A DNA stretch of 64,000 bases from Paraburkholderia ginsengiterrae. GTDB taxonomy: Bacteria; Pseudomonadota; Gammaproteobacteria; Burkholderiales; Burkholderiaceae. The position numbers were made by a program, and so were the translations under genes. The stretch is taken from assembly GCF_001645125.1 (NCBI RefSeq), contig NZ_LXKA01000329.1:1-64000 (forward strand), given 5' to 3'. The notes below the pieces were generated by a model. The model did not search any database. It was not told the origin of the DNA and worked only from the letters and a program-made list of their open reading frames with translations. Below are positions 33,306 to 49,564 of the stretch, piece after piece; positions within the stretch are counted from its first letter, which is position 1; each line of letters begins with the position of its first letter.

Positions 33306-36239
33306 TCACGATCCGGCCACGCGTCGCCATGGCGCTGCGTCGAGCAGCATTTCGCGATAGCGGTCGATCGGAAAGCTCAACGTCCCGCGAAAATTGACAT
33401 GTGCGAAGTGCGCCGGCCCCATCCGCCGCAGCCAGTCGTCGTCAACCCCTTGACCCTTGCTTCGCCAACGATCAAGGGTTGCCTGGATACGCTGCGTATT
33501 CCACGCAATGACCAGATTTGTCAGCAGCGTCAAAGAGCCGGATATCGCGATCATTTCGTCGCGGCGCCGTCCGCGCTCCGGTGCAATCTTGCCGGTATAG
33601 ATTGCGCGCTGCAACTGGTGGACTGATTCACCCCGGTTGAGCAGCGTATGCATTTCTCGCCTGAATTCAATGTTGCTGAAGTAATCGCACAGGAAAAGCG
33701 TGCGCAGCAGTCTGCCAAGATGGTCCGCTGCCCGGTACACCGGGTCGCCCTGCGCCGCGCTGCCGAACCGCTGCAATGCGACCATTGCGCTCACGCGTCC
33801 CGCATGAATCGATGCGACGAGCCGCAGCAGTTCCGTCCAACCCGCGCGAATCGCCTTGATGGAGATCTCGTAGGCGACGACCGCTGCCAGTCCCTCGGGA
33901 GCAGCCACGCCTTTCGGCAGATGCAGTTTGCGTTCCGAGAGGTTGCGCAGACGCGGGCAGAGATCAAAACCGAGCAGCTTCGACACCGTCATGCCTACGT
34001 TCGTGTATCCATGCGTGTCTACTGAAAGTCGCAACAGTCCGCCGTCGTCGCGGTTCTCGTTGTGGCGGATCACGCCCTCGATCGCCGCTCCAGCCTGGCG
34101 TTCATTCAGCACGATGGGCTGGTTATAGACAATGCCGTGCTGATCCAGCACGTGCGTATACATGCCCACCGCATGAGTGCGACGTCGCGGATCGACCCGC
34201 GCATAAAAGAGGTGCGGTGACGTATCCAGGCTCATTGAGTCGCTCGATGCCTGCCGTCCGGTACCCCAGAGTTCCGTAATCGGATGCGTACGCTGGAACT
34301 GCACCACGCGATCGTTTGCACGCAGCAGCCGACCGGGCATCTCAAGGAAGCGCATTGCCGTCGAAATGTGCGCCCGGTCCAATTGCGGGATCATGGCGGC
34401 AACGCTTTTCGTGTCCAGTTCCGTGCCATGGGCGATCAACGCAGCGTACAGCGAGACGAGTTCGTTCGCATCGCGCGCCTTGCGTGACCGGAGCACTTCA
34501 CTGAAGCCAGTGTGGGCATCCATCTCCATGATCATGTCGGCGAACTGTGCGGTGCCGATCTCCCTGAATATCAGATCCCGCGTGCGTTTCGGTATTCCAT
34601 CGGTCGGCAACGCTTCGATAGCCGACAGATGCAGCGCGCCGTCGGTCCCGATCGTCACGCGGTCTGCCTCGCGCGCTTCCTCCAGCGCGGCCAGGCCTGC
34701 CTTGAGGTTTTCCGTCAACCGTTCGAGGAACGGCTCCGCGGTTCCCGGCAATCCGAGCGACGACAGGTAGCGTTCGCGTTCGCTTTCCCATTGCGCGGGT
34801 GGAATCAGCAACTGGTCGCGCTCCCGGAACGACAGGCTGTGGTTGATCCAGACCGAGCCGCGGCGAAGCCCCTTGCGCAGACCCGTGATTGCCGATGCCT
34901 CCAGTGCCCGCAACGCGCGCGTCCGATCGTCACCCTCGACGAGATCGCGCCAGGCGGCGCTGACCGGCACATCGCAGTCGGGCGGCAATTCGGTCGCGCC
35001 GCTGTCATACAGTGTGCCGACAAGTTCGAGCTGTCGCAGGCTCGGTTCCGCTTCGCGGCCCACGAAGCCTAGCTCACGTAACGGCCCCAGCAGATTGCGG
35101 ATGCGGTGATGATCGTCGGTGAGCGTTTCCCGTACGCTGGCTGCGTGACTTGCTGGTGGCCTGTCCCCGAGGTCCTCAAGCAACTTGCCAATATCGTCGA
35201 GACGCTCTTGCGCCGTACGCTTGCCATCCTGAACCAGCGCCTTGATCGCGACCAGTTGCTGCCGGTATTCGATAGCAGAACGTGCCTGCCGGACCGTCGT
35301 GCGATCGTAAGCCTGCCGTACGAGGTCGGAGACCCGGCGCCCTGCTTGATAGAGTAGCGCGTCCGTCAGCTCGAGCAGCGTGATGCGCAGGAAAAAGATC
35401 AGCTCAATAGTGCGGGTCGACTGCTTGAGTTCGCGGACCTTCGCAGGACGGCGAGCCTGGATGCGCTGCGCGTATGCGTGCTGCTTTGCGATTGGCACGC
35501 CGTCGAGTTCCCACGTATGCGCGCCAAGTTCCTTGAGAAACCGGACCTTCTCAAGGGTTTCGGTGAGCGTCGTGGGGCTGTGTCGCGCTGGCGGCGTCTT
35601 GAGCCATTCGAGCACTCTCACGCCGGAGGTGTCGTGCTGGGCAGATAGGACAGCATCGGCGCGCATCAACTGCGTTTCTGTGACCGTTGCCTCGATAAGT
35701 GCGAGCAAGCCACGTTCAACGTCCGACCAGATCGACCGGCCGAGATCCCGCAGTTTCCGCTCGGCAGGTATCAGAATGCGACGCTCATACAGCCAGCAAT
35801 GGGCGTGCAGGAGCAGCTCGTCGAGCGTGAGCGATTCGGCGGCGTCCTGTCGCATCCACGCTTCAAGTTCCGCCCAGTCGGTCGGTCTGATCGACGTCAT
35901 GCCGAGGTATTCGCAGGTCCAGGCCTGATGCTCGTACAGCGTCTTATAGCGCTGATAGAGCGTGCGGAGAGAGGCAATCGTGGGGGTGGGCAGGCTGAGC
36001 CGCTCGCCGATATAGCGCAACAGCTGGCGTGGCAATGTGCCGACATGATCGAGAGTGTGGCCACTCGCCCGCAGAAAGACCAACTGGATCGCGACGCCGG
36101 CACGGCGGTCACGCCGAAAATGCTCGTTGACGGCGGCAACGTCGCTGTCAGTCAACGCGAAGTAGCGCTCCACGTCGAATTCTGACAATCGGGTGGGCAG
36201 GCGATCCTTTCCCACATAGCGAAATTCCAGACCTGGCAT
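33306..36239 (-). CDS. tnpA: Tn3-family transposase
   Basis: A 977-residue DDE transposase of normal Tn3 length. The N-terminal part carries FDVERYFALTDSDVAAVNEH and further DNA-binding helices. The C-terminal catalytic domain shows family motifs: LSVDTHGYTNVGMTVSKLLGFDLCPRLRNL with the second aspartate region, and NLVIAWNTQRIQATLDRW near the end. The ATG at 36239 has a GGAGG/AGGAG ribosome site directly upstream; the frame continues to 36320 without homology. It would carry out replicative transposition of the surrounding 3.4-kb element, with cointegrates resolved elsewhere. Confidence 0.93.
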   Translation of the reverse strand: MPGLEFRYVGKDRLPTRLSEFDVERYFALTDSDVAAVNEHFRRDRRAGVAIQLVFLRASGHTLDHVGTLPRQLLRYIGERLSLPTPTIASLRTLYQRYKTLYEHQAWTCEYLGMTSIRPTDWAELEAWMRQDAAESLTLDELLLHAHCWLYERRILIPAERKLRDLGRSIWSDVERGLLALIEATVTETQLMRADAVLSAQHDTSGVRVLEWLKTPPARHSPTTLTETLEKVRFLKELGAHTWELDGVPIAKQHAYAQRIQARRPAKVRELKQSTRTIELIFFLRITLLELTDALLYQAGRRVSDLVRQAYDRTTVRQARSAIEYRQQLVAIKALVQDGKRTAQERLDDIGKLLEDLGDRPPASHAASVRETLTDDHHRIRNLLGPLRELGFVGREAEPSLRQLELVGTLYDSGATELPPDCDVPVSAAWRDLVEGDDRTRALRALEASAITGLRKGLRRGSVWINHSLSFRERDQLLIPPAQWESERERYLSSLGLPGTAEPFLERLTENLKAGLAALEEAREADRVTIGTDGALHLSAIEALPTDGIPKRTRDLIFREIGTAQFADMIMEMDAHTGFSEVLRSRKARDANELVSLYAALIAHGTELDTKSVAAMIPQLDRAHISTAMRFLEMPGRLLRANDRVVQFQRTHPITELWGTGRQASSDSMSLDTSPHLFYARVDPRRRTHAVGMYTHVLDQHGIVYNQPIVLNERQAGAAIEGVIRHNENRDDGGLLRLSVDTHGYTNVGMTVSKLLGFDLCPRLRNLSERKLHLPKGVAAPEGLAAVVAYEISIKAIRAGWTELLRLVASIHAGRVSAMVALQRFGSAAQGDPVYRAADHLGRLLRTLFLCDYFSNIEFRREMHTLLNRGESVHQLQRAIYTGKIAPERGRRRDEMIAISGSLTLLTNLVIAWNTQRIQATLDRWRSKGQGVDDDWLRRMGPAHFAHVNFRGTLSFPIDRYREMLLDAAPWRRVAGS

Positions 36240-36365
36240 CTCCTGCCTCCCATCAAGGTCGCGCGATCCGCAGTCGCGGGCAGGTATGTTATCGCAGGCG
36301 CTTTTGGGACCTCCAGACAACAGTTAGATCCGATGGCAGCCTTATAGATAAGGGCTCTACGGAGG

Positions 36366-37385: not shown

Positions 37386-38027
37386 ATGAGCTATCTCATG
37401 CACGGCGACTGTCTCGACCTTTTGCCGGAAATTCCGGACGCGATCGTCGACTTCGTCCTCACCGATCCACCGTATCTTGTCAATTATCACGATCGCAGCG
37501 GGCGCTCGATCGCAAACGATGTTCATGCGGACTGGCTTGTACCAGCCTTTGCTGAAACGTTTCGCGTCCTCAGGAATGATGCGTTGTGCGCGAGCTTCTA
37601 TGGGTGGACGCGGACCGATCTGTTTTTCGACGCATGGAAGCGTGCCGGCTTCCGGATCGTTGGGCACATCGTGTTCGCCAAGCCATACGCATCCAAAGCG
37701 CGGTTCGTCAAATATCAGCACGAATCTGCCTACCTGCTTGCAAAGGGATCGCCCGCGGTGCCGAAGCTGCCTGTATCTGACGTCATTCCGTGGAAGTACT
37801 CAGGCAACCGCCATCACCCGACCGAAAAGCCCCTGGGATGCCTGATGCCGCTTATCAAGGCTTTTACCCAACCCGGCGACGTCGTACTCGACCCGTTCGC
37901 GGGTTCCGGCTCGACATGCGTGGCTGCGCAGCAGCTGGATCGCCGATACATTGGCATTGAGCTTGACGCGAACTGGTATGCCGCTGCGCAAGCCCGCCTG
38001 AACAGTTGCGAGGTGATCGCCGAATGA
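37386..38027 (+). CDS. Orphan DNA methyltransferase (beta-class N6-adenine/N4-cytosine type)
   Basis: A 213-residue SAM-dependent DNA methyltransferase. The catalytic motif IV is LTDPPYLVNY near residue 27, and the SAM-binding motif I is LDPFAGSGSTCVAAQQL near residue 165, the order of beta-class enzymes. The sequence FRIVGHIVFAKPYASKARFVKYQHESAYLLAKG resembles small phage and plasmid methyltransferases. No restriction endonuclease gene is adjacent, so it is probably a protective or regulatory methylase. A plasmid leading region is a common place for such genes. Confidence 0.88.
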   Translation: MSYLMHGDCLDLLPEIPDAIVDFVLTDPPYLVNYHDRSGRSIANDVHADWLVPAFAETFRVLRNDALCASFYGWTRTDLFFDAWKRAGFRIVGHIVFAKPYASKARFVKYQHESAYLLAKGSPAVPKLPVSDVIPWKYSGNRHHPTEKPLGCLMPLIKAFTQPGDVVLDPFAGSGSTCVAAQQLDRRYIGIELDANWYAAAQARLNSCEVIAE

Positions 38028-38287: not shown

Positions 38288-38548
38288 TCACGGTTCCCAT
38301 ATCTGGCCTAACCCGGCCGCAGCGCAGAGCAGCGCCCATGCCGAATAGGGAATGCCGGCTTCCCCGCTTATCCAGCGTCTGAGCTGGCGGCCGCTCTTAT
38401 CTGCGAGCCCAAGGAAATCAGCGGCCTGCCTGCCGGAGAATCCCGCGAGGCGAATCACTTCCTGGATTTCCGCTCCGGTGGGTTCCATCCAGTTGACGGC
38501 CGGCTGCAGGCACTCAGGGCGAATTGTGATCTGAACGGTTGTTGTCAT
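38288..38548 (-). CDS. Helix-turn-helix DNA-binding protein
   Basis: An 86-residue protein with a helix-turn-helix in the middle: EIQEVIRLAGFSGRQAADFL then ADKSGRQLRRWISGEAGIPY. The pattern fits Cro/CI-like regulators. It is the last gene of the leftward cluster that includes the genes from 38576 to 42349, and is a candidate regulator of it, for instance through the operators at 42403 and 42501. Confidence 0.6.
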   Translation of the reverse strand: MTTTVQITIRPECLQPAVNWMEPTGAEIQEVIRLAGFSGRQAADFLGLADKSGRQLRRWISGEAGIPYSAWALLCAAAGLGQIWEP

Positions 38549-39975: not shown

Positions 39976-40338
39976 TTATTCCTGACGTCGCGCGAGTTGC
40001 GCCCGCTTCAGTTCACCCGGTGCGCCGAATTCGAAGTCGTCAACAGTGAAGTTGTAGCCGTAACGCTCGACGCCCTGGCCGTCCCGGAAGTCGTTGTTCG
40101 ACAGCCTGGCTTCAACGATCAGTTGATCGCCCTTCAGGACGTTTCTGGCGATGGCCTCACCGCGCGAACCGAAGGCAGTAAACTGGATTCGCACCTGACG
40201 CTCTTTCGCTTCGCCGCTGCCTTCGTCGCGACCGGCGTACTCGTTGGAAATCAGGGTGAATTTTGCCACCCTCGAATCACCGTGATTCGAGAGAACCGGG
40301 GTCGCAGCAAGGCGGCCAGTAAAGAAAAGCCTGTTCAT
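39976..40338 (-). CDS. ssb: Single-stranded DNA-binding protein, plasmid type
   Basis: A 120-residue SSB with a single OB fold: MNRLFFTGRLAATPVLSNHG at the start, then VAKFTLISNEYAG, IQFTAFGSRGEAIARNVLKG and NFTVDDFEFGAPGE. It coats single-stranded DNA during replication or after conjugative entry. It lacks the long acidic C-terminal tail of chromosomal SSB, which is common in plasmid versions. It belongs to the leftward plasmid cluster (42349 to 38288), matching genes expressed early after transfer. Confidence 0.9.
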   Translation of the reverse strand: MNRLFFTGRLAATPVLSNHGDSRVAKFTLISNEYAGRDEGSGEAKERQVRIQFTAFGSRGEAIARNVLKGDQLIVEARLSNNDFRDGQGVERYGYNFTVDDFEFGAPGELKRAQLARRQE

Positions 40339-41049: not shown

Positions 41050-41883
41050 TTAGCCGCGCAGGCGGCGCAGTTCGTCAGCGAGGACCCAGAGGGCGCGGTT
41101 GAGCCTGATGTTCTGGTCAATGCCGGTCACGGGGCGGGTCGTGGTACCCCGGCCATTCGCATTACGACCGCGCAGACCGCCGTTGATCATGTTTTCCTGC
41201 ACGCGATTGAACGTCGTCCACAGGTCCGGGGCACGATCCTCCATGCGATGCGGTGTCAGGAGTTGACGTTCAGTAATGGGAGCTGGCTTGTCATCGTCGT
41301 ACCGCAGCGCAAGCGCGGCCCGCGCGAAAGCGGCCTGTTCTCCGTCGGTCAGCGCCAGACCGGCCATTCCCTCGCGCTGCCGGGTCGCCGACTCGAAGCC
41401 GTCGAGCACCCTGAACGCCCCCTCGATCACCTCGCCGATCACGTCGCCCTTGTGGGGCACGCGGATATCGCCAACGGTGTCTCCGCAGACCATGCCGTTC
41501 TGGCAGACAAACCGGAACATGCCCGCGATCATCTGGTAGCTGCTGGTGCCATCGTGGCTGTTAAGGAGGATGATTTCGTTGGCTTCATGGCCCGTAATCT
41601 GGTCCGCGTGCCGCAGACGGACCATGTGTTTCGTGTGGGCGCGCTTGTCGTCGTCGCGTACGCGGGTCTGGCAGACCATGAAAGGCTGGAAGCCTTCCTT
41701 GCGCAGGCCGTCCAGCACATCGCTGGTCGGGATATAGCTGTAGCGCTCCGAGCGGCTTTCGTGTGCGGACAGCGCAAAGATCGACGGGGCAACCTCCGCA
41801 ATCTCGTCATTCGTCAGCGGGCGATCCGAACGTGTGCCAACTGCAGTGCGGCTGAAGCGGTTTGTCAGGTAAGTGGTGTCCAT
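41050..41883 (-). CDS. DUF932 domain protein
   Basis: A 277-residue protein of the DUF932 family, common on plasmids and phages. Recognisable parts are YSYIPTSDVLDGLRKEGFQP near residue 48, KHMVRLRHAD, the NEIILLNSHDGTSSYQMIAG segment and FRFVCQNGMVCGD. DUF932 proteins resemble LGT_TIGR03299-type plasmid proteins but have no firm function. The ATG at 41883 fits the homology; the frame runs upstream to 42057 without it. Confidence 0.85.
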   Translation of the reverse strand: MDTTYLTNRFSRTAVGTRSDRPLTNDEIAEVAPSIFALSAHESRSERYSYIPTSDVLDGLRKEGFQPFMVCQTRVRDDDKRAHTKHMVRLRHADQITGHEANEIILLNSHDGTSSYQMIAGMFRFVCQNGMVCGDTVGDIRVPHKGDVIGEVIEGAFRVLDGFESATRQREGMAGLALTDGEQAAFARAALALRYDDDKPAPITERQLLTPHRMEDRAPDLWTTFNRVQENMINGGLRGRNANGRGTTTRPVTGIDQNIRLNRALWVLADELRRLRG

Positions 41884-41935
41884 GCTGTTCCCCAATATCG
41901 GGATCAGCCCCGGCCCGCAGGCCAGGGCTGGTCGG

Positions 41936-42349
41936 TTAGTCAATTGCGCGGAGGATGTTGGCGGCTTCCACGTGCTGGGCCGCGTAGGCGCGCAGTGCGT
42001 GGTAGTGACCGATGATCGTGTCGTTGCCACACTTTTCGGCCAGATGGCACAGGGCAAACAGCGTGACGACGATGCCGAATGCGTCGGCGCCCATCATGTC
42101 GTTGTAGCCGTTCATGTGCCACCGGACGTGCATTCGCCCACAGCGCTCAGGGGCCATGTAAAAACCGCCGTTGGACAGCTGGAAGAAATTCCATGATCCA
42201 CCGTTGTAGGCACGGCAGAGACGGCGTGCCCAGTCGTACACCAGTGCTTCGCCCTCGAGATGATGCGCACCCAGGTAGTGAGGAAGAAAGTTAAGGCGCA
42301 GCTCTTCCGCAACGACGCTCGACGATACCTTGAATTCATTATCAATCAC
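41936..42349 (-). CDS. klcA: Antirestriction protein, KlcA/ArdB family
   Basis: A 137-residue protein matching the KlcA/ArdB family, which blocks type I restriction and helps plasmid DNA survive entry into a new host. Typical segments are LNFLPHYLGAHHLEGEALVY, RRLCRAYNGGSWNFFQLSNG and GFYMAPERCGRMHV, then IVVTLFALCHLAEKCG and a C-terminal HYHALRAYAAQHVEAANILR ending RAID. Translation starts at a GTG (42349) preceded by GGAG, lying in the 49-base inverted repeat shared with the divergent parB-like gene. Confidence 0.9.
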   Translation of the reverse strand: MIDNEFKVSSSVVAEELRLNFLPHYLGAHHLEGEALVYDWARRLCRAYNGGSWNFFQLSNGGFYMAPERCGRMHVRWHMNGYNDMMGADAFGIVVTLFALCHLAEKCGNDTIIGHYHALRAYAAQHVEAANILRAID

Positions 42350-42571
42350 GGTTTATCTCCGGTTTCGGACCACAACGGAATGTCGGGCCACGCTTTAATA
42401 ATAGGTCTTTTAGACCTTAAATCAAGGAATAATTGGATTGATGTTGTTAACTATGCGTGATTGGTGATTAATATTGTTGATCGGTTTATTCTTGTGTAAT
42501 AGGTCTTTTAGACCTAACATATAAGCGTGGCCCGACATTCCGTTGTGGTCCGAAACCGGAGATAAACCGTG
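42347..42571. promoter_or_regulatory. Symmetric divergent control region with perfect 49-base inverted repeat and two operators
   Basis: The arms 42347-42395 and 42523-42571 are perfect reverse complements over 49 bases, including the ribosome binding site (GGAG) and GTG start codon of both divergent genes. Inside, seven bases from each arm, are two identical copies of the palindrome AGGTCTTTTAGACCT (42403-42417 and 42501-42515). The 83 bases between them are A+T-rich and not repeated. So both genes are read from mirror-image leaders, and a repressor bound to the two operators would control them together. -10-like TATAAG at 42520-42525 suggests the operator overlaps the promoter. Confidence 0.8.
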
Positions 42572-44560
42572 ACTGTATCTGTTGAAAACAGAATTACCGA
42601 GACCGTACTTGAAACCAGTTTCGGCAACGAAACGAAGATCGAGTACGTTGCCTATGGGCTGCTTTGCAAATCACCGTCGAACGTGCGCAAAAAAGCGCCG
42701 ACCGGAATTGAGGAGCTGGCTGTTGCCATTGAGGCCAAGGGACTGATGCAGAACCTGGTCGTGCACGCGATGAAGGGTTCACGCGCGAAAAAGGCAAAAC
42801 TCGGCGTGTGCGCCGGTCAGCGCCGTCTCGCCGCGCTCGACCTCCTGTTCGAACGGGGCAAGATCACGACGGACCATCCCGTTCCGGTCAAGGTTGTCAG
42901 CGAGGCCGAAGCCGTCGCGGCGTCGCTGCTGGAAAACCAGCATGAGCCGATGCACCCGGCAGATCAGTGCGAAGCGTTCCGGATGCTGGCCGGGGAAGGC
43001 AAAAGCATCGAATACATCGCGGCGCTGTTCAGAATCTCACTCTTGATGGTGCGGCGGCGGCTGAAACTGGCGAACGTCTCGCCGAATCTGCTGAACCTGT
43101 TTCGCAACGACGAAATGAATATCGACCAGGTTACGGCGCTGGCGCTGGCCGACGATCACGATCTGCAGCAGCGGGTGTGGTCGGAGGCGACCGAGGCATG
43201 GCAACGCGAACCGCGCGAACTGCGTGCCGCGATCACCGGCACTGAGATCGATGCGAGCCGCAGCCATCTGGCCAGATTCGTCGGTCTGGACGCCTACGAG
43301 GCCGCCGGTGGCCATGTACGGCGCGACCTGTTCAGCGACGCGGAGAACGCTGGTTATATCGCCGATCCGGATCTGTTGCACAAGCTGGCCACCGAACGAC
43401 TGGTGGCGGCGTCGCAGGAAGTCGCCAAGGAAGGATGGGCCTGGGTCGAAACGCGCACGAAGCGAGACTATGGCGAAGTCATGGCCTATGGACGGTTGCC
43501 GTCGTTTTCGCGTGAGCTTACGACTGACGAGCAGACCGAGCTCGACGCGCTAATTGCTAAGCGCGACGAAGCCGATGCGAAGCTTAATACTTACAATGAC
43601 AGCGAAGCCGACGAGGACGATGCACAGCGCGAGCCACTGGAAGAACAGGCGTATGCGCTGAACGACCAGGTCCACACCTTCGGAGAGCGTCTTGAAACCT
43701 GGGCCGACGACGACATGAAAATGGGCGGGGTGTTCATCACGATCGACCAGGATGGCGAGCTCAACATCGAGCGCGGACTGGTGAAGCGCGACGATGTGGC
43801 GCGCGTGTATCCGAAGGACGACGCGAGCGATGGCGAGGCAGGCATGGCGACAGCTGACCCGCAACCCAAAGAGAAGCCGCTGCACGGGGAAAAGCTGTGC
43901 CGCCGTCTGACGGCGCACCGGACCGCTGCCGTGCAGGCCGAGCTTTCCCGCCGTCCAGTCGTCGCACTGGCCGCTTTCATGAACCGGCTGATTCCCACCG
44001 TGTTCGACGAGCGCTACCGGTTTGCGTATGCCGAAAGCGCCGTGAAGATCGACGCACACACCTCGCGCGATGCGCTGGTGCGCGAGGCGGACGACATGGA
44101 GTCGAGCGTGGCTTTTACGCAAATTGAGGCCGACCGGGCGAAGTGGGCAAAGCTGCTGCCCAAGGACGTTGACGACCTGCTGCCATGGCTGCTGAAACAG
44201 GAATCGGACGTGATGGCCAGGCTGTTTGCGTTCTGCGTGGCCGCGACGCTCGACAGTGTGAGTTCGACGGATCGCATCCACCCCATCAACACGCTCGCGG
44301 ATGTAATGCAGATAAACATGGCGTACTACTGGAAGCCGACGCAGCAAAGTTATCTGAATCACGTATCGAAAGCGAGGATCATCGACGTAGTGACCGAGGC
44401 GGTCTCGGTGGAATCGGCCGCGGAACTGCAAGGCATGAAGAAGGGCGACGCGGCCGCAGGTGCAGAGCTTCGGATTGCCGAATCGGGCTGGCTTCCGGAA
44501 GTGCTAAGAAAGCGCAAGGCAAACGATAAGGGCGAAACAAAGCGCAAGCAGACGCGCTAG
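42569..44560 (+). CDS. Large ParB-like plasmid protein
   Basis: A 663-residue protein with an N-terminal ParB/sulfiredoxin-like domain. The CTP-binding region reads LGVCAGQRRLAALDLLFERG and ASLLENQHEPMHPADQCEAF, where ParB has GERR and ENxxR-type motifs. A helix-turn-helix follows (KSIEYIAALFRISLLMVRRR). The large C-terminal part (300-663) is acidic to mixed and unlike chromosomal ParB. A ParA gene is not adjacent. It may be a plasmid transcription or partition regulator. It starts at GTG 42569 in the mirror-image leader shared with the antirestriction gene, so it may be coregulated during plasmid establishment. Confidence 0.8.
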   Translation: MTVSVENRITETVLETSFGNETKIEYVAYGLLCKSPSNVRKKAPTGIEELAVAIEAKGLMQNLVVHAMKGSRAKKAKLGVCAGQRRLAALDLLFERGKITTDHPVPVKVVSEAEAVAASLLENQHEPMHPADQCEAFRMLAGEGKSIEYIAALFRISLLMVRRRLKLANVSPNLLNLFRNDEMNIDQVTALALADDHDLQQRVWSEATEAWQREPRELRAAITGTEIDASRSHLARFVGLDAYEAAGGHVRRDLFSDAENAGYIADPDLLHKLATERLVAASQEVAKEGWAWVETRTKRDYGEVMAYGRLPSFSRELTTDEQTELDALIAKRDEADAKLNTYNDSEADEDDAQREPLEEQAYALNDQVHTFGERLETWADDDMKMGGVFITIDQDGELNIERGLVKRDDVARVYPKDDASDGEAGMATADPQPKEKPLHGEKLCRRLTAHRTAAVQAELSRRPVVALAAFMNRLIPTVFDERYRFAYAESAVKIDAHTSRDALVREADDMESSVAFTQIEADRAKWAKLLPKDVDDLLPWLLKQESDVMARLFAFCVAATLDSVSSTDRIHPINTLADVMQINMAYYWKPTQQSYLNHVSKARIIDVVTEAVSVESAAELQGMKKGDAAAGAELRIAESGWLPEVLRKRKANDKGETKRKQTR

Positions 44561-44821: not shown

Positions 44822-45304
44822 TTACGCGGAAACCTTCTCCGCCGCCGCTTTAGCAGTTGCCTCTGTGCTGCCCTGCGCTTGCACCTTCTTCTCACTTTCG
44901 CGCTCAGCGATGAAAGCGTCACCGCGTTTTTTGAGCGTCCGCTGCAGATCGCCATCCGCCCTGAACTGATCAAGCGCCCATAGCAGCGCACCGGTCAGCG
45001 TGCCGCGATCCACCGGAAAATCAACCGTTGAAACGACGCCGCCGAGATCGATAAGTTCGCGCGTGTGCGCCTTGCGCTGATCCTCGCGCCGTGCGCTAAG
45101 CATGCGGGCCGCTTCGGCCTTCATTACGTCGGCCTTCTGGTTGATCTTTTCAAGCCGGACCAGCTTGTCGAGCTGGCGCGACTCCTGCGCGGTTGGATTC
45201 GGAATCGCAGCGAGTTCGACCAGCAGCGATTGGGTGGCGGTGGGCGACTTCAAACCCTTGATGTACTGGACGTGTTCCGTGAGCCATTCGGCGTTTGCCA
45301 TCAT
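44822..45304 (-). CDS. traD: Conjugal transfer protein TraD (relaxosome accessory)
   Basis: A 160-residue helical protein with the TraD-type core: RREDQRKAHTRELIDLGGVV and VDRGTLTGALLWALDQFRAD near the end. TraD and related proteins of Agrobacterium-type plasmids assist relaxase at oriT. The gene is divergent from the relaxase traA, as in such transfer regions. C-terminus ends in Lys/Ala-rich sequence. The first two codons are both ATG. Confidence 0.75.
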   Translation of the reverse strand: MMANAEWLTEHVQYIKGLKSPTATQSLLVELAAIPNPTAQESRQLDKLVRLEKINQKADVMKAEAARMLSARREDQRKAHTRELIDLGGVVSTVDFPVDRGTLTGALLWALDQFRADGDLQRTLKKRGDAFIAERESEKKVQAQGSTEATAKAAAEKVSA

Positions 45305-45518
45305 GTTTCTCCTGGATCAGTTTCAGGTTGCGTTGGGCGACAGCGCAGGCAGACCATCGGCTCCTTCCTGTCAGGCCATTCCGGATGATGAAAAATCGCA
45401 AACCGGTTTAGCAAGGATGGGCCACGTAAAATCTGGCGAGCAAAGCGGGTCAAAGCGCGCTTCCGCGTTTCCATGCTAGCATGGAAACAGCTTATGGTAA
45501 GACAAATGCCAATCCGCC
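45305..45518. other. Candidate oriT region between traD and traA
   Basis: The 214 bases between the divergent traD and traA genes are the usual position of oriT in pTi/RSF1010-type transfer systems. It contains a perfect 22-base palindrome at 45467-45488 (half-site GTTTCCATGCT) just upstream of the relaxase start and a short A+T-rich bubble. No exact nic consensus could be confirmed by eye. Confidence 0.45.
45467..45488. repeat. Perfect 22-base palindrome upstream of traA
   Basis: GTTTCCATGCT followed directly by its reverse complement AGCATGGAAAC. It is 30 bases before the traA ATG and could be an operator or the relaxase recognition hairpin of oriT. Confidence 0.6.
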
Positions 45519-48341
45519 ATGCCAACCTACCACCTAAGCGTGAAAGCAGGCAGGAAAGCCGCCGCTGGCGAGCACGCCAAGTACATTGCGCGTGAGGATC
45601 ACTACGCCTACATTTCCCGCGGCGGCCGGTACGAGGAGCGCGGCGACCTGAAGATGACCGAGAGCGGCAACATGCCGGCGTGGGCCGCACATGACGCGAG
45701 CATTTTCTGGCAGGCCGCGGACACCCATGAACGCGCGAATGGTCGACCGTACACGGAAATCGAGGTTTCGATACCGCGCGAACTGGACGATGAACAGCGC
45801 GTCGCGCTCGTGCGCGAGTTCGTTGAACACACGCTCGGCGAGCGTCACGCGTACACGTGGGCGATCCACAATCCGGCGGCAAGCGACGGACTCGAACAGC
45901 CGCACGCACACATCATGTTCACGGAACGCGTGAACGACGGCATCGCGCGTGATCCGGAGCAATATTTCAGGCGCTGGAATGCAACGGAACCTGAAAAGGG
46001 CGGCGCTGGAAAAGACCGCTATCTGAGCAGCCGGCAGTTCGTGCGCGACGTGCGCGAAGAATGGGCCGTCACGGCAAATCACTTCATGGCGCGGGTGGGC
46101 ATCGAGGCCCGCATCGACCACCGCAGCTACCGGACGCTGGGCATCGAACTGGAGCCGTCGGTCAAGGTGGGCGTCGCGCGCTACGCGGGAGAGCGCGGCG
46201 TGATGGCGAGTGTGCTGGAAGAGAACCGCCAGCGCGCATTCCGCAACGGCCAGCGGCTACTGATCAATCCGGCGATCGCCGTCGCCGCCCTGACGGTCAA
46301 CCAATCCACGTTCTCACGACGCGACGTCGAGCAGTTCGTGTTTCGCAACACCGACGGGGCCGAACAGTTCCGGCAGGTTTACGCGCGCCTGATGAATTCG
46401 AAGGAACTGCTGGCGCTAAAGGATTCCGGACGGGCGGGCGAGTGGTTCACGTCAGCGGATCTGCGTGCGATCGAGGTACGACTGGTCGAACGCGCGCGTG
46501 AAATGAGTCATGCCGGCGATGCTGCGGTGGGCGATACCGCAGCGCGTGAAATGCTGCGTGCGACCCGACAGTTCAATGCGGGGCAGGATGCGGCTTTTGT
46601 TGCGCTCGCCGGCGGCGCCCAGCTGGTGGTCGTGAATGGCGCAGCGGGTACCGGCAAAAGCTACGTACTCGCGGCAGCACGCGAAGCGCTCGAGGCGGAC
46701 GGGCTGCGCGTAGTCGGCGCAGCGCTGCAGGGTAAGACGGCCGACGATATGCAGCGCGATGCCGGCATCGCGAGCCGGACGCTGCACAGTCTGCTTTCGG
46801 GCATCGAGCGCGGCACCGTTACGCTCGATGCAAAAACGGTTCTGGTGATCGACGAGGCCGGCATGGTCGGCTCGCGGCAAATGGAAAAACTGCTCGGCCA
46901 CGCGCAGGCGGCCGGTGCGCGCGTACGCCTGGTGGGCGATGCGTGGCAGCTGCATGCGGTCGATGCAGGCGATGCTTTCCGCGCGGTATCGCGCGAAGCG
47001 CTCGCCGGGGACCGGTTGGAAAGCCTGACCGAGATCAAGCGCCAGAACGAGGCCTGGCAGCGCGAAGCAACGTTGGCGCTGGCCCGGCATGATGTGCAAA
47101 CGGCGGTGTCCGCGTATGCGGAGCGCGGTGGCGTGCAGCTGTATGCCACCGTCGGTGACGCGCGCGAGCAGCTGATTGCGCAATGGCAGGATGATCGCCG
47201 GAGAAGCCCTGGCAAGGACCTGTTGCTGCTGACTCATACCAACGAAGAGCGCTGCGCGCTGAATGCGCGAGTGCGCGAATTGCGACGGTCCGCCGGCGAG
47301 CTGGGTGCCGAACAGACCGTGCGAGCCGAAGACCGGCACATTGCGATCGCCGCCGGCGAGCGGATCGTGTTTCTGCAGAACGAGTACGTGATGCAGGTCA
47401 AGAATGGGACGCTGGGCGCCGTCGAACGGATCGACGCGCCGGCGGACAGGAAAGCGACCGGTGCCGTCCTGCATGTGCGGCTCGATGACGGCCGGCGACT
47501 CGCGGTCGATACGGCACAGTACGGCCATTTCGATTACGGTTACGCGCTCACGGTCCACAAGAGCCAAGGTGTAACAGTCGACGGCGCGTATGTGCTGGCC
47601 ACGAAGAGCATGCACGCCGAACTGGCCTACGTCGCGATGACCCGGCACAAGGAAAATCTGGTTGTGGCGGCCGGACGGGACGAATTTGCGGACGGCACGG
47701 CGCTGATGCGCAGCCTGTCGCGTGCCGACGAAAAATCGTTCAGTGCACAGCACGAACTAAGGCCGGATCGCGATCGTCGGCCGGAGACGGGCTACCGGCA
47801 CACACTGAACCAGCGACGCGTCGAATTTTCGAATGCGCCGCGGCCGCGACGGACGGAAATGACGCTCGGTCGGGCCGTCGAACAGTATGCCGACGCGCTA
47901 TCCCGCGCGTCGGTCGCCAAGGGCGACAGCAGGCCGCTGGCTGCAAAGGAGCGTGCTGCGCTGAAACGGGCAGGGGCTGCGCTAGACCGCCGTGACTCCA
48001 CGATGCGACGCGAGATCCGTTACGTTGTTGAGAGGGACGATCGTGCCTGGAGGGCACTCGTTGAGCTCAGCGGCGCCGAGCGGGCAGCTGCTCTGGTGAA
48101 CGAGGTCGTCGCCGCGCGGGCGCAGCAACGCGGACTTGATCTGCGAGCAACTGAAGGCACGCTACCGGGATCGCGTAGCGGAACGTTCAGACGTTTTGCG
48201 GACATGACGCGTGAGGAACGGCAGAATCGTCGTAGCGAATCCAAGGCGCCATTGCGTGAGGCGGCAAGTGAGCCAGTCGCGCTCGACCGGTCACAAAGTA
48301 CGAAGGACCGTGGTCGAGGCGGGCCGGAATTCGGCGATTGA
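45519..48341 (+). CDS. traA: TraA relaxase-helicase, MobA/MobL (MOBQ) type
   Basis: A 940-residue conjugative relaxase. The N-terminal MobA/MobL domain has the family start MPTYHLSVKAGRKAAAGEHA, with a catalytic tyrosine candidate in KYIARED near residue 22, and the histidine motif EQPHAHIMFTE that binds the metal ion. The C-terminal half is a superfamily 1 helicase: Walker A VVNGAAGTGKSYVLA near residue 370, Walker B VLVIDEAGMVGS near 441 and the helicase VI-like ALTVHKSQGVTVDG near 680. This domain order is that of Agrobacterium TraA. It nicks oriT and unwinds plasmid DNA during transfer. The ATG at 45519 is 178 bases after the traD start region. Confidence 0.92.
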   Translation: MPTYHLSVKAGRKAAAGEHAKYIAREDHYAYISRGGRYEERGDLKMTESGNMPAWAAHDASIFWQAADTHERANGRPYTEIEVSIPRELDDEQRVALVREFVEHTLGERHAYTWAIHNPAASDGLEQPHAHIMFTERVNDGIARDPEQYFRRWNATEPEKGGAGKDRYLSSRQFVRDVREEWAVTANHFMARVGIEARIDHRSYRTLGIELEPSVKVGVARYAGERGVMASVLEENRQRAFRNGQRLLINPAIAVAALTVNQSTFSRRDVEQFVFRNTDGAEQFRQVYARLMNSKELLALKDSGRAGEWFTSADLRAIEVRLVERAREMSHAGDAAVGDTAAREMLRATRQFNAGQDAAFVALAGGAQLVVVNGAAGTGKSYVLAAAREALEADGLRVVGAALQGKTADDMQRDAGIASRTLHSLLSGIERGTVTLDAKTVLVIDEAGMVGSRQMEKLLGHAQAAGARVRLVGDAWQLHAVDAGDAFRAVSREALAGDRLESLTEIKRQNEAWQREATLALARHDVQTAVSAYAERGGVQLYATVGDAREQLIAQWQDDRRRSPGKDLLLLTHTNEERCALNARVRELRRSAGELGAEQTVRAEDRHIAIAAGERIVFLQNEYVMQVKNGTLGAVERIDAPADRKATGAVLHVRLDDGRRLAVDTAQYGHFDYGYALTVHKSQGVTVDGAYVLATKSMHAELAYVAMTRHKENLVVAAGRDEFADGTALMRSLSRADEKSFSAQHELRPDRDRRPETGYRHTLNQRRVEFSNAPRPRRTEMTLGRAVEQYADALSRASVAKGDSRPLAAKERAALKRAGAALDRRDSTMRREIRYVVERDDRAWRALVELSGAERAAALVNEVVAARAQQRGLDLRATEGTLPGSRSGTFRRFADMTREERQNRRSESKAPLREAASEPVALDRSQSTKDRGRGGPEFGD

Positions 48342-48790: not shown

Positions 48791-49070
48791 CCGTGGCCCC
48801 GCTACCGCGTCCTATGGGGCGACTTCGAGCCCCTTGCTGCTGTTAGGACCGGCTTCCGCGCGGCTCCCTTCCAGTATAGGGCGCACGTTGGGATATCCAA
48901 GGTCGCCCTTCGCTGGCTCGCTGGCGACAGCGGAGACCGTCATGCCTGACATCATTTGCGGACCTTCGTTGATACCTCGACAAATTGTGGCTATTAAGCG
49001 CGGTTTTGCTAATAGCAGTTATCAAAACTGTATGCGATACGGCCCCAATTTTATGGGTGATGTGCGCTCA

Positions 49071-49382
49071 CACAACTAAAGTTGTTATTAAATTTCAACT
49101 AAAGTTGTGACTGCCCGCGCGCCTTGCCATCCGGTGCGCCTTTCCCCCGCGTCGCCGCTGGAACAGGCCGCCGACCTTGCGCGCGACGACCGTCTGGCCG
49201 CCCCCCGCCGCGCACTGCGATACAACTTTCGTTGAAATTGCGCATCGCGTTACAGCTTTAGTTGCCGACGTCGACGCGATGGTTACAACATTAGTTGAAA
49301 TGGGATTTGGCCCGGAAGCCTTGCGGGAAGGAGGTTTGCTGGAATTTTTGCGATGCACAACCGTAGTAACAACTTTAGTTGT
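49071..49382. repeat. Array of six short palindromes (CAACTTTAGTTG type)
   Basis: Six copies of CAACTTTAGTTG or its reverse complement lie within 310 bases: 49073-49084, 49096-49107, 49223-49234 (CAACTTTCGTTG), 49253-49264 (CAGCTTTAGTTG), 49286-49297 (CAACATTAGTTG) and 49370-49381. Three are exact. Most are preceded by A or TA and followed by T or A. Distances between neighbours are 23, 127, 30, 33 and 84 bases. This looks like a binding-site array for one dimeric protein, such as a partition protein or replication regulator, or a cis region of the transfer system. Antisense and sense frames through it encode repeated TT(L/K)V, which is a by-product of the palindromes. Confidence 0.7.
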
Positions 49383-49564
49383 GTGAGCGGGCATCGATCG
49401 ATTCAGGCTTCTGCGCAAATGCGGAGCGTCCGAAGTTGGTGCGTTCCAGCGCGCTCGCCTGTCTCCGGTTGCGAACACGCGATGGCGGGCACGGACCTCT
49501 CGCAGGTGTTCGGACGTCAAGATGTGAGCCCGGATGCCGATATACTCGCTACGCATTTACGGAC

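Follow-up and report, generated by a model that had tools for sequence, protein, structure and literature searches.

The window considered here, the whole 64,000-nucleotide stretch of Paraburkholderia ginsengiterrae DNA that was analysed, contains two divergent genes that share a short intergenic region. The leftward one (41936..42349, minus strand) encodes an antirestriction protein of the KlcA/ArdB family (PF03230, E = 6e-37) and heads a run of genes that includes an ORF with a DUF932 domain (41050..42057, minus strand; PF06067), whose true start probably lies inside the ORF, and a gene for a single-stranded DNA-binding protein (SSB; 39976..40338, minus strand; PF00436), and that ends with the gene for a KorC homologue of 86 aa (38288..38548, minus strand), the predicted repressor of both promoters described below. 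The rightward gene (42569..44560, plus strand) encodes a 663-aa ParB_N-like protein whose domain match, at E = 4.6e-5 and 23.8 bits, falls below the Pfam cut-off of 26.3. Farther to the right, a TraD-like gene (44822-45304, minus strand) diverges from the gene for a Ti-type TraA relaxase (45519-48341, plus strand), and an oriT may occupy the gap between them (45305-45518); a nic motif, allowed up to two mismatches, occurs at chance level in the window (21 occurrences, 22.9 expected) and not at all in this gap. To the left, a DNA methyltransferase gene (37386-38027, plus strand) is convergent with the korC-like gene, a methyltransferase gene likewise being found downstream of the DUF932 gene in a Burkholderia contaminans plasmid (L014), and a Tn3-family transposase gene (33306-36320, minus strand) lies about 2 kb past the KorC homologue.

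The divergent genes are read out of an exact inverted repeat with 50-nt arms (left arm 42346..42395, right arm 42523..42572, both defined from the sequence without regard to strand), and each arm contains the Shine-Dalgarno sequence and GTG start of its gene. The initial annotation had recognized this repeat with its two start sites, giving 49 nt for the arms. Of the window's exact inverted repeats whose arms measure 14 nt or more and start no more than 400 nt apart, none is longer, and the sequence has a single matching locus in the 8.5-Mb genome. One other repeat of this class is present in the window, with 23-nt arms (49065-49087 / 49367-49389). As DNA, the 233-nt minus strand of the region folds to -78.8 kcal/mol (z = -16.7), a value reached by none of 200 shuffles. 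The evidence presented here indicates that the mirror repeat consists of a cassette present twice, back to back, each copy comprising a KorC-type operator between -35 and -10, a 5'UTR hairpin, a Shine-Dalgarno sequence and a GTG start.

The operator part of the cassette is the palindrome AGGTCTTTTAGACCT, which, as had been noted at the outset, lies seven bases inside each arm (42403..42417 and 42501..42515, with no strand assigned); it occurs nowhere else in the window. Each copy fills the spacer between the -35 and -10 elements of its predicted promoter. On the antirestriction side this is TTGATT-16-TATTAT (42398..42425, minus strand), found in a promoter scan that returned one promoter where 0.5 would be expected by chance; on the ParB-like side it is TTGTGT-17-TAACAT (42492..42520, plus strand), a weak match in both elements that was read by symmetry and that the scan did not report. 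The initial annotation took the palindromes for operators and named the protein encoded at 38288 as a possible binder, and both ideas have gained from the comparison: they look like KorC-type sites, and the nearby protein, a KorC homologue, is likely to be what binds them. This protein has no Pfam or NCBIfam match, but it is 58% identical over 80 aa to a small protein of the IncP-1 plasmid pTE_C_3 that is encoded downstream of the antirestriction gene and, although unnamed in the record, sits in the korC position; it also matches a five-member profile that includes it with E = 2e-42, and it can be aligned with the KorC annotated in R751. It is the presence of a KorC homologue on the same element, together with an operator between -35 and -10, that would place the palindromes in KorC-type promoters, and KorC would be expected to bind the AGGTC-type operator. 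With the locus read as a KorC regulon, binding of the ParB-like protein to the palindromes, which had also been suggested, is not required. Precedents exist: klcA is described as controlled by KorC in RP4 and RA3 (PMC7314908, PMC7414963), KorC of RP4 as controlling klcA, kleA and kleC, and the KorC site of pOXA-48 as predicted between -35 and -10 (PMC12365149).

Between operator and ribosome binding site, each arm can form a small RNA hairpin of identical sequence, at 42368..42389 (minus strand) in the 5'UTR of the antirestriction mRNA and at 42529..42550 (plus strand) in that of the ParB-like mRNA, with eight base pairs, one bulged base on the 3' side and a 5-nt loop. Relatives of the locus are informative here. 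Plasmid and genome searches yielded 61 divergent antirestriction/ParB pairs, which were reduced to 40 distinct loci by removing near duplicates, with the locus in the window included; the two leaders of a locus align with a score of at least 50 in 34 of the 40, counting one (L034) whose score comes from its operator and whose halves overlap by 40 nt. Three leaders were dropped (the right one of L010, the left one of L105, and the right one of L069, which the leader pattern had missed), and the 69 leaders were cut to 45 for alignment by discarding identical or redundant ones. These 45, together with one IncP-1 leader, were used to build a covariance model, R1, which matches both arms of the window (42356-42394 and 42524-42562) with 41.9 bits and E = 4.5e-8, the window leader being itself part of the alignment behind the model, and each match has the 8-bp bulged hairpin before its Shine-Dalgarno sequence.

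The typical leader hairpin consists of two four-pair helices, separated by a bulged base on the 3' side, and a loop of about five nucleotides, and is followed by ACCGGAG. Each arm's own hairpin persists among the relatives with compensatory changes. In a sequence-only alignment of the 46 leaders, 85.3% of cells are paired (27-47% with one side slid), and covariation scores 0.363, compared with 0.161 at most. The model-fitted set of 92 matches (81 distinct), which retains one match that looks like a chance hit (L007:4314), gives 87.5% and again 0.363, the structure and model having been derived from the same families and the pair counts being inflated by kinship and by the fitting itself. RNAalifold returned no consensus pair on the leader alignment designated A3, and shuffled versions of the window hairpin are as stable as the original (z of about 0). 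Wobble pairs favour the sense strand in both arms, G.U outnumbering A.C by 15 to 4 in left arms and by 22 to 4 in right arms; as a role in one DNA strand predicts that the bias should reverse in one arm, this excess points to RNA rather than to transferred single-stranded DNA. The location of the hairpin is also constrained: in 72 of 76 arms the stem begins 7-9 nt downstream of the hexamer that best resembles a -10 box, a spacing that would put its first base at roughly +1 to +3 of the transcript. Thus, the hairpin probably starts the mRNA, and on the basis of this spacing across the 76 arms, transcription in the window would begin near 42391 for the antirestriction gene and near 42527 for the ParB-like gene. 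Rfam has nothing in the window at gathering score, its three matches below threshold being spread over two miRNA families and one snoRNA family, and no klcA or KorC leader hairpin is described in the titles and abstract openings of the open-licence literature among the matches listed.

An operator-like palindrome, in some cases imperfect, stands upstream of 82 of the 92 model matches at one offset (23-28 in a 54-nt window), with at least five of six outer positions paired in 49 of the 92, a level reached by 6.3% of random windows and by 0.8% of shuffles. Exceptions identified by eye are L097 and L107, which have no clear operator, and four leaders of L072 (1860, 4464, 4947 and 7254), where the palindrome ACAAG...CTTGT replaces the KorC operator. 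The KorC homologue of L072 is more divergent (E = 5e-25), and operator and repressor seem to have changed there while the hairpin stayed.

R1 also recognizes leaders beyond the family that supplied it. In the window and its genome, only the two arms rise above noise. In R751, which was held out, the model finds the kleA leader at 42.6 bits and the antirestriction leader at 36.3 bits, and a KPC plasmid is matched at the same two genes. In RA3, also held out, the orf02 and antirestriction leaders score 26.5 and 26.4 bits, respectively; these are two of the five KorC promoters of that plasmid, and both are under KorC according to the RA3 study (PMC7414963), the other three having no R1 match. A weak match in pOXA-48, likewise held out (21.2 bits, E = 0.004), falls at a promoter, bearing TAGGACAAAATGTCCTA, of a JAB-domain gene that is followed by an HTH gene; it fits the orf24-korC promoter, the only KorC site predicted for pOXA-48 according to PMC12365149. 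Among 300 Burkholderiaceae genomes, 26 have an R1 match at E of 0.05 or below. An antirestriction gene lies no more than 2.4 kb from every one of the 22 matches that reach 31.6 bits, and nine of these matches are in genomes that supplied no leader to the model. The remaining 16 of the 38 matches are weaker: 14 lie elsewhere and two (in G102 and G009) are antirestriction/ParB leaders, and none of the 12 other weak matches that were read is preceded by a palindrome of the AGGNC type. An antirestriction gene is present in 25 of the genomes, of which 11 gave no match in the filtered search, yet three of these do hold leaders of 34 to 36 bits (one that of L102, the two others exact copies of the L030 and L032 leaders); the remaining eight may lack one. 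At ParB-like genes with no antirestriction neighbour (51 of 75 loci scanned), the best match was 18.9 bits, and the leader therefore appears to be tied to an antirestriction neighbourhood.

Why, then, are the two arms so alike? We compared them in the 38 loci in which the model finds both arms, leaving out the one-armed L010 and L105. Left and right hairpin segments of the same locus are on average 0.892 identical, against 0.638 for permuted partners, while the 45 nt upstream, which contain the promoter, are 0.657 identical in own arms and 0.614 between strangers; none of 20,000 permutations, which ignore plasmid kinship, reaches either own-arm value, and the gain in the promoter segment is far smaller. 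This is difficult to square with the proposal of the initial annotation, that single-stranded plasmid DNA entering by conjugation could fold the repeat into a long hairpin and so provide a single-strand promoter, a duplex that RNA polymerase would read before the second strand is made. Frpo-type promoters of this kind are known in leading regions (PMC11541004), the nearby antirestriction, SSB and relaxase genes would fit such a region, and a long stem is possible in the single-stranded DNA here as in the Frpo/ssi elements, given the strong fold noted above. However, a promoter that works as a folded single strand should keep its -35 and -10 elements paired across relatives, whereas what is shared in loci of this type is the transcribed leader (0.89) more than the promoter (0.66). 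In addition, any given strand can template only one of the two divergent genes, the sense-strand wobble bias holds in both arms, and arm-to-arm mismatches, tested with repeated pairs and arms less than 0.85 alike left out, show no clear strand bias (16 versus 12). The arms are less than 0.85 alike in nine of the 38 loci, and in 16 the left arm is closer to some other plasmid's left arm than to its own right arm, with 12 closest to their own right arm and ten ties, so that arm identity is common rather than obligatory. Equally similar leaders also occur as direct repeats: those of RA3 are 389 bp apart and identical at 31 of 32 positions (promoters, 32 of 50), and in the IncP-1 plasmids pTE_C_3 and R751 the leaders agree at 33 of 33 and 30 of 34 positions (promoters, 50 of 50 and 46 of 50). 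It follows that mirror geometry is not what keeps leaders alike. The authors of the RP4 study report having identified no single-strand promoters for its induced genes (PMC7314908), and we regard a single-strand promoter as very improbable at this locus.

Two further explanations dispense with folding of the transferred strand. One is ordinary duplication, in which the leader has no role as RNA and a copied promoter cassette is kept alike by inverted-repeat conversion or template switching. Conversion between arms does appear to occur, at least in one tract-like case, L022, in which the right-arm sequence is also present in the left arm as far as the -10 box, a state not shared by the relatives L004, L012 and L025; and the two IncP-1 plasmids, R751 and pTE_C_3, fit plain duplication too, since their promoters resemble each other about as closely as their leaders do. 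Yet duplication alone would not account for the covariation of the hairpin, its fixed place at the predicted 5' end, or the drop in identity upstream of the predicted start in divergent loci even though the promoters, too, are part of the repeats, and we think it improbable as a full account. The other supposes a plasmid-specific factor acting in trans, an RNA-binding protein or a small RNA, that recognizes the leader, so that the leaders of one plasmid match and drift jointly between plasmids. In seven of the 38 loci own arms are at least 0.92 alike with no other plasmid's left arm above 0.85, and the RA3 leaders are alike where its promoters are less so, both of which favour this. Nine loci nevertheless have two rather different leaders, and in L014, of three leaders (5357, 5483 and 7664), those of the antirestriction and DUF932 genes agree at 31 of 34 positions while that of the adjacent ParB-like gene does not (23 of 34), which makes two kinds of leader on one plasmid; no candidate factor came to light in the analyses described here. 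We consider a trans factor unlikely, if less so than duplication by itself. The initial annotation had offered selection or gene conversion as the source of arm identity, and it seems that both may take part: the L022 tract speaks for conversion, and the fall in identity upstream of the predicted start in divergent loci and in RA3 suggests that selection on the RNA is also involved. We therefore propose the two together.

The closest parallel is the KorC regulon of IncP-1 plasmids (R751 and pTE_C_3, with RP4 from the literature), which shares with the window a KorC-type gene downstream of the antirestriction gene, an operator palindrome between -35 and -10, and a hairpin leader, before both the antirestriction gene and kleA. 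It differs in that its two leaders, separated by about 2 kb, are repeated in direct orientation and have upstream of them a GTTTAGCTAAA site, a KorA operator, whereas in the window the operators have AGGTC half-sites and the second promoter drives a divergent ParB-like gene. In the IncU plasmid RA3, the nearly identical orf02 and klcA leaders each have a KorC-type palindrome and a hairpin, but the orientation is direct, the half-sites are AGGCC, and the other KorC promoters are not matched by the model. Repeated upstream cassettes of antirestriction genes under a plasmid repressor, as in the window, are also a feature of the CUP elements of the IncN plasmids pKM101 and R46; identity with a CUP element was considered and set aside, as R1, the hairpin model being all that was tried, has no match in the R46 leading region at E up to 1.

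A more distant resemblance is to NDM-sR5a-d of pNDM-HK (IncL/M), 53-55-nt RNAs found by RNA sequencing in four near-identical copies, one of them before klcA, and called sRNAs by the authors (PMC5880898). Each folds with a hairpin beginning at base 2-3, and its 3' end lies a few bases beyond AGGAG; they have two hairpins each and no evident sequence relation to the window leader, and our own reading is that they would be mRNA leaders. In pOXA-48 (L231, 25000-37000), five near-identical copies of a promoter and two-hairpin leader precede leading-region genes (at about 25768, 27071, 28373, 29334 and 30260), and the first base of the RNA would fall 7 nt after TATAAT. These copies of NDM-sR5 may be 5'UTRs rather than independent sRNAs.

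The reading that we favour, and hold to be reasonably probable, is that KorC represses a pair of establishment promoters, that the mRNAs made from them start in a hairpin which protects them or tunes their translation, and that conversion together with shared selection keeps the leaders alike. The comparison behind it draws on operator position, the KorC homologue, hairpin covariation, wobble bias, the spacing from -10 and recurrence at KorC promoters. KorC, made from the end of the antirestriction run, would repress both promoters through the operators between -35 and -10; upon entry of the plasmid into a KorC-free cell, both genes would fire until KorC builds up. At the head of each mRNA, a short way before the Shine-Dalgarno sequence, would stand the small bulged hairpin, which would most likely shield the 5' end from RppH and RNase E and keep the ribosome site open, resulting in a longer burst. 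The leaders of one plasmid would stay alike through their common RNA role and through occasional overwriting by one another, with the long inverted repeat being a consequence of the head-to-head layout. Stem-loops of the ompA/papA type provide a precedent for hairpins at or near the 5' end of an mRNA, and the window leader would resemble them if it starts the mRNA, as the 7-9 nt spacing from -10 suggests. Base pairing of the 5' end is reported to slow RNase E cleavage in vitro (PMC3997798), although for the window leader both stabilisation and an effect on translation are suggestions. The induction expected upon entry has a counterpart in RP4, for which it is reported that in one mating klcA (223.7-fold) and kleA-D (37-51-fold) were the most induced, with klaA close at 35.9, and that in the other klaA was second to klcA (PMC7314908). 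It is tempting to go further and imagine the leader as an undescribed RNA element of conjugative plasmids, a plasmid-specific 5' hairpin tag on establishment mRNAs, through which one plasmid factor would control the anti-defence burst at the RNA level atop KorC, and which, perhaps like NDM-sR5, might also be set free as a stable RNA of short length, but this we consider a rather doubtful extension.

The locus illustrates a caution: when a perfect inverted repeat lies next to transfer genes, it does not have to act as a single-strand promoter. The leader is shared by Paraburkholderia replicons, R751, RA3 and a KPC plasmid, and perhaps by pOXA-48, and R1 offers a compact search model for such operons. 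Its recurrence in relatives and in well-studied plasmids suggests, from sequence comparison, an overlooked RNA element for the establishment of plasmids in a new cell, and the hairpin may contribute, in a way open to testing, to the strong induction of klcA in the zygote. Work on the KorC promoters of IncP-1 and IncU plasmids has long treated them as switches at the DNA level; a conserved RNA hairpin on KorC messages would add an RNA layer to anti-restriction expression just after transfer.
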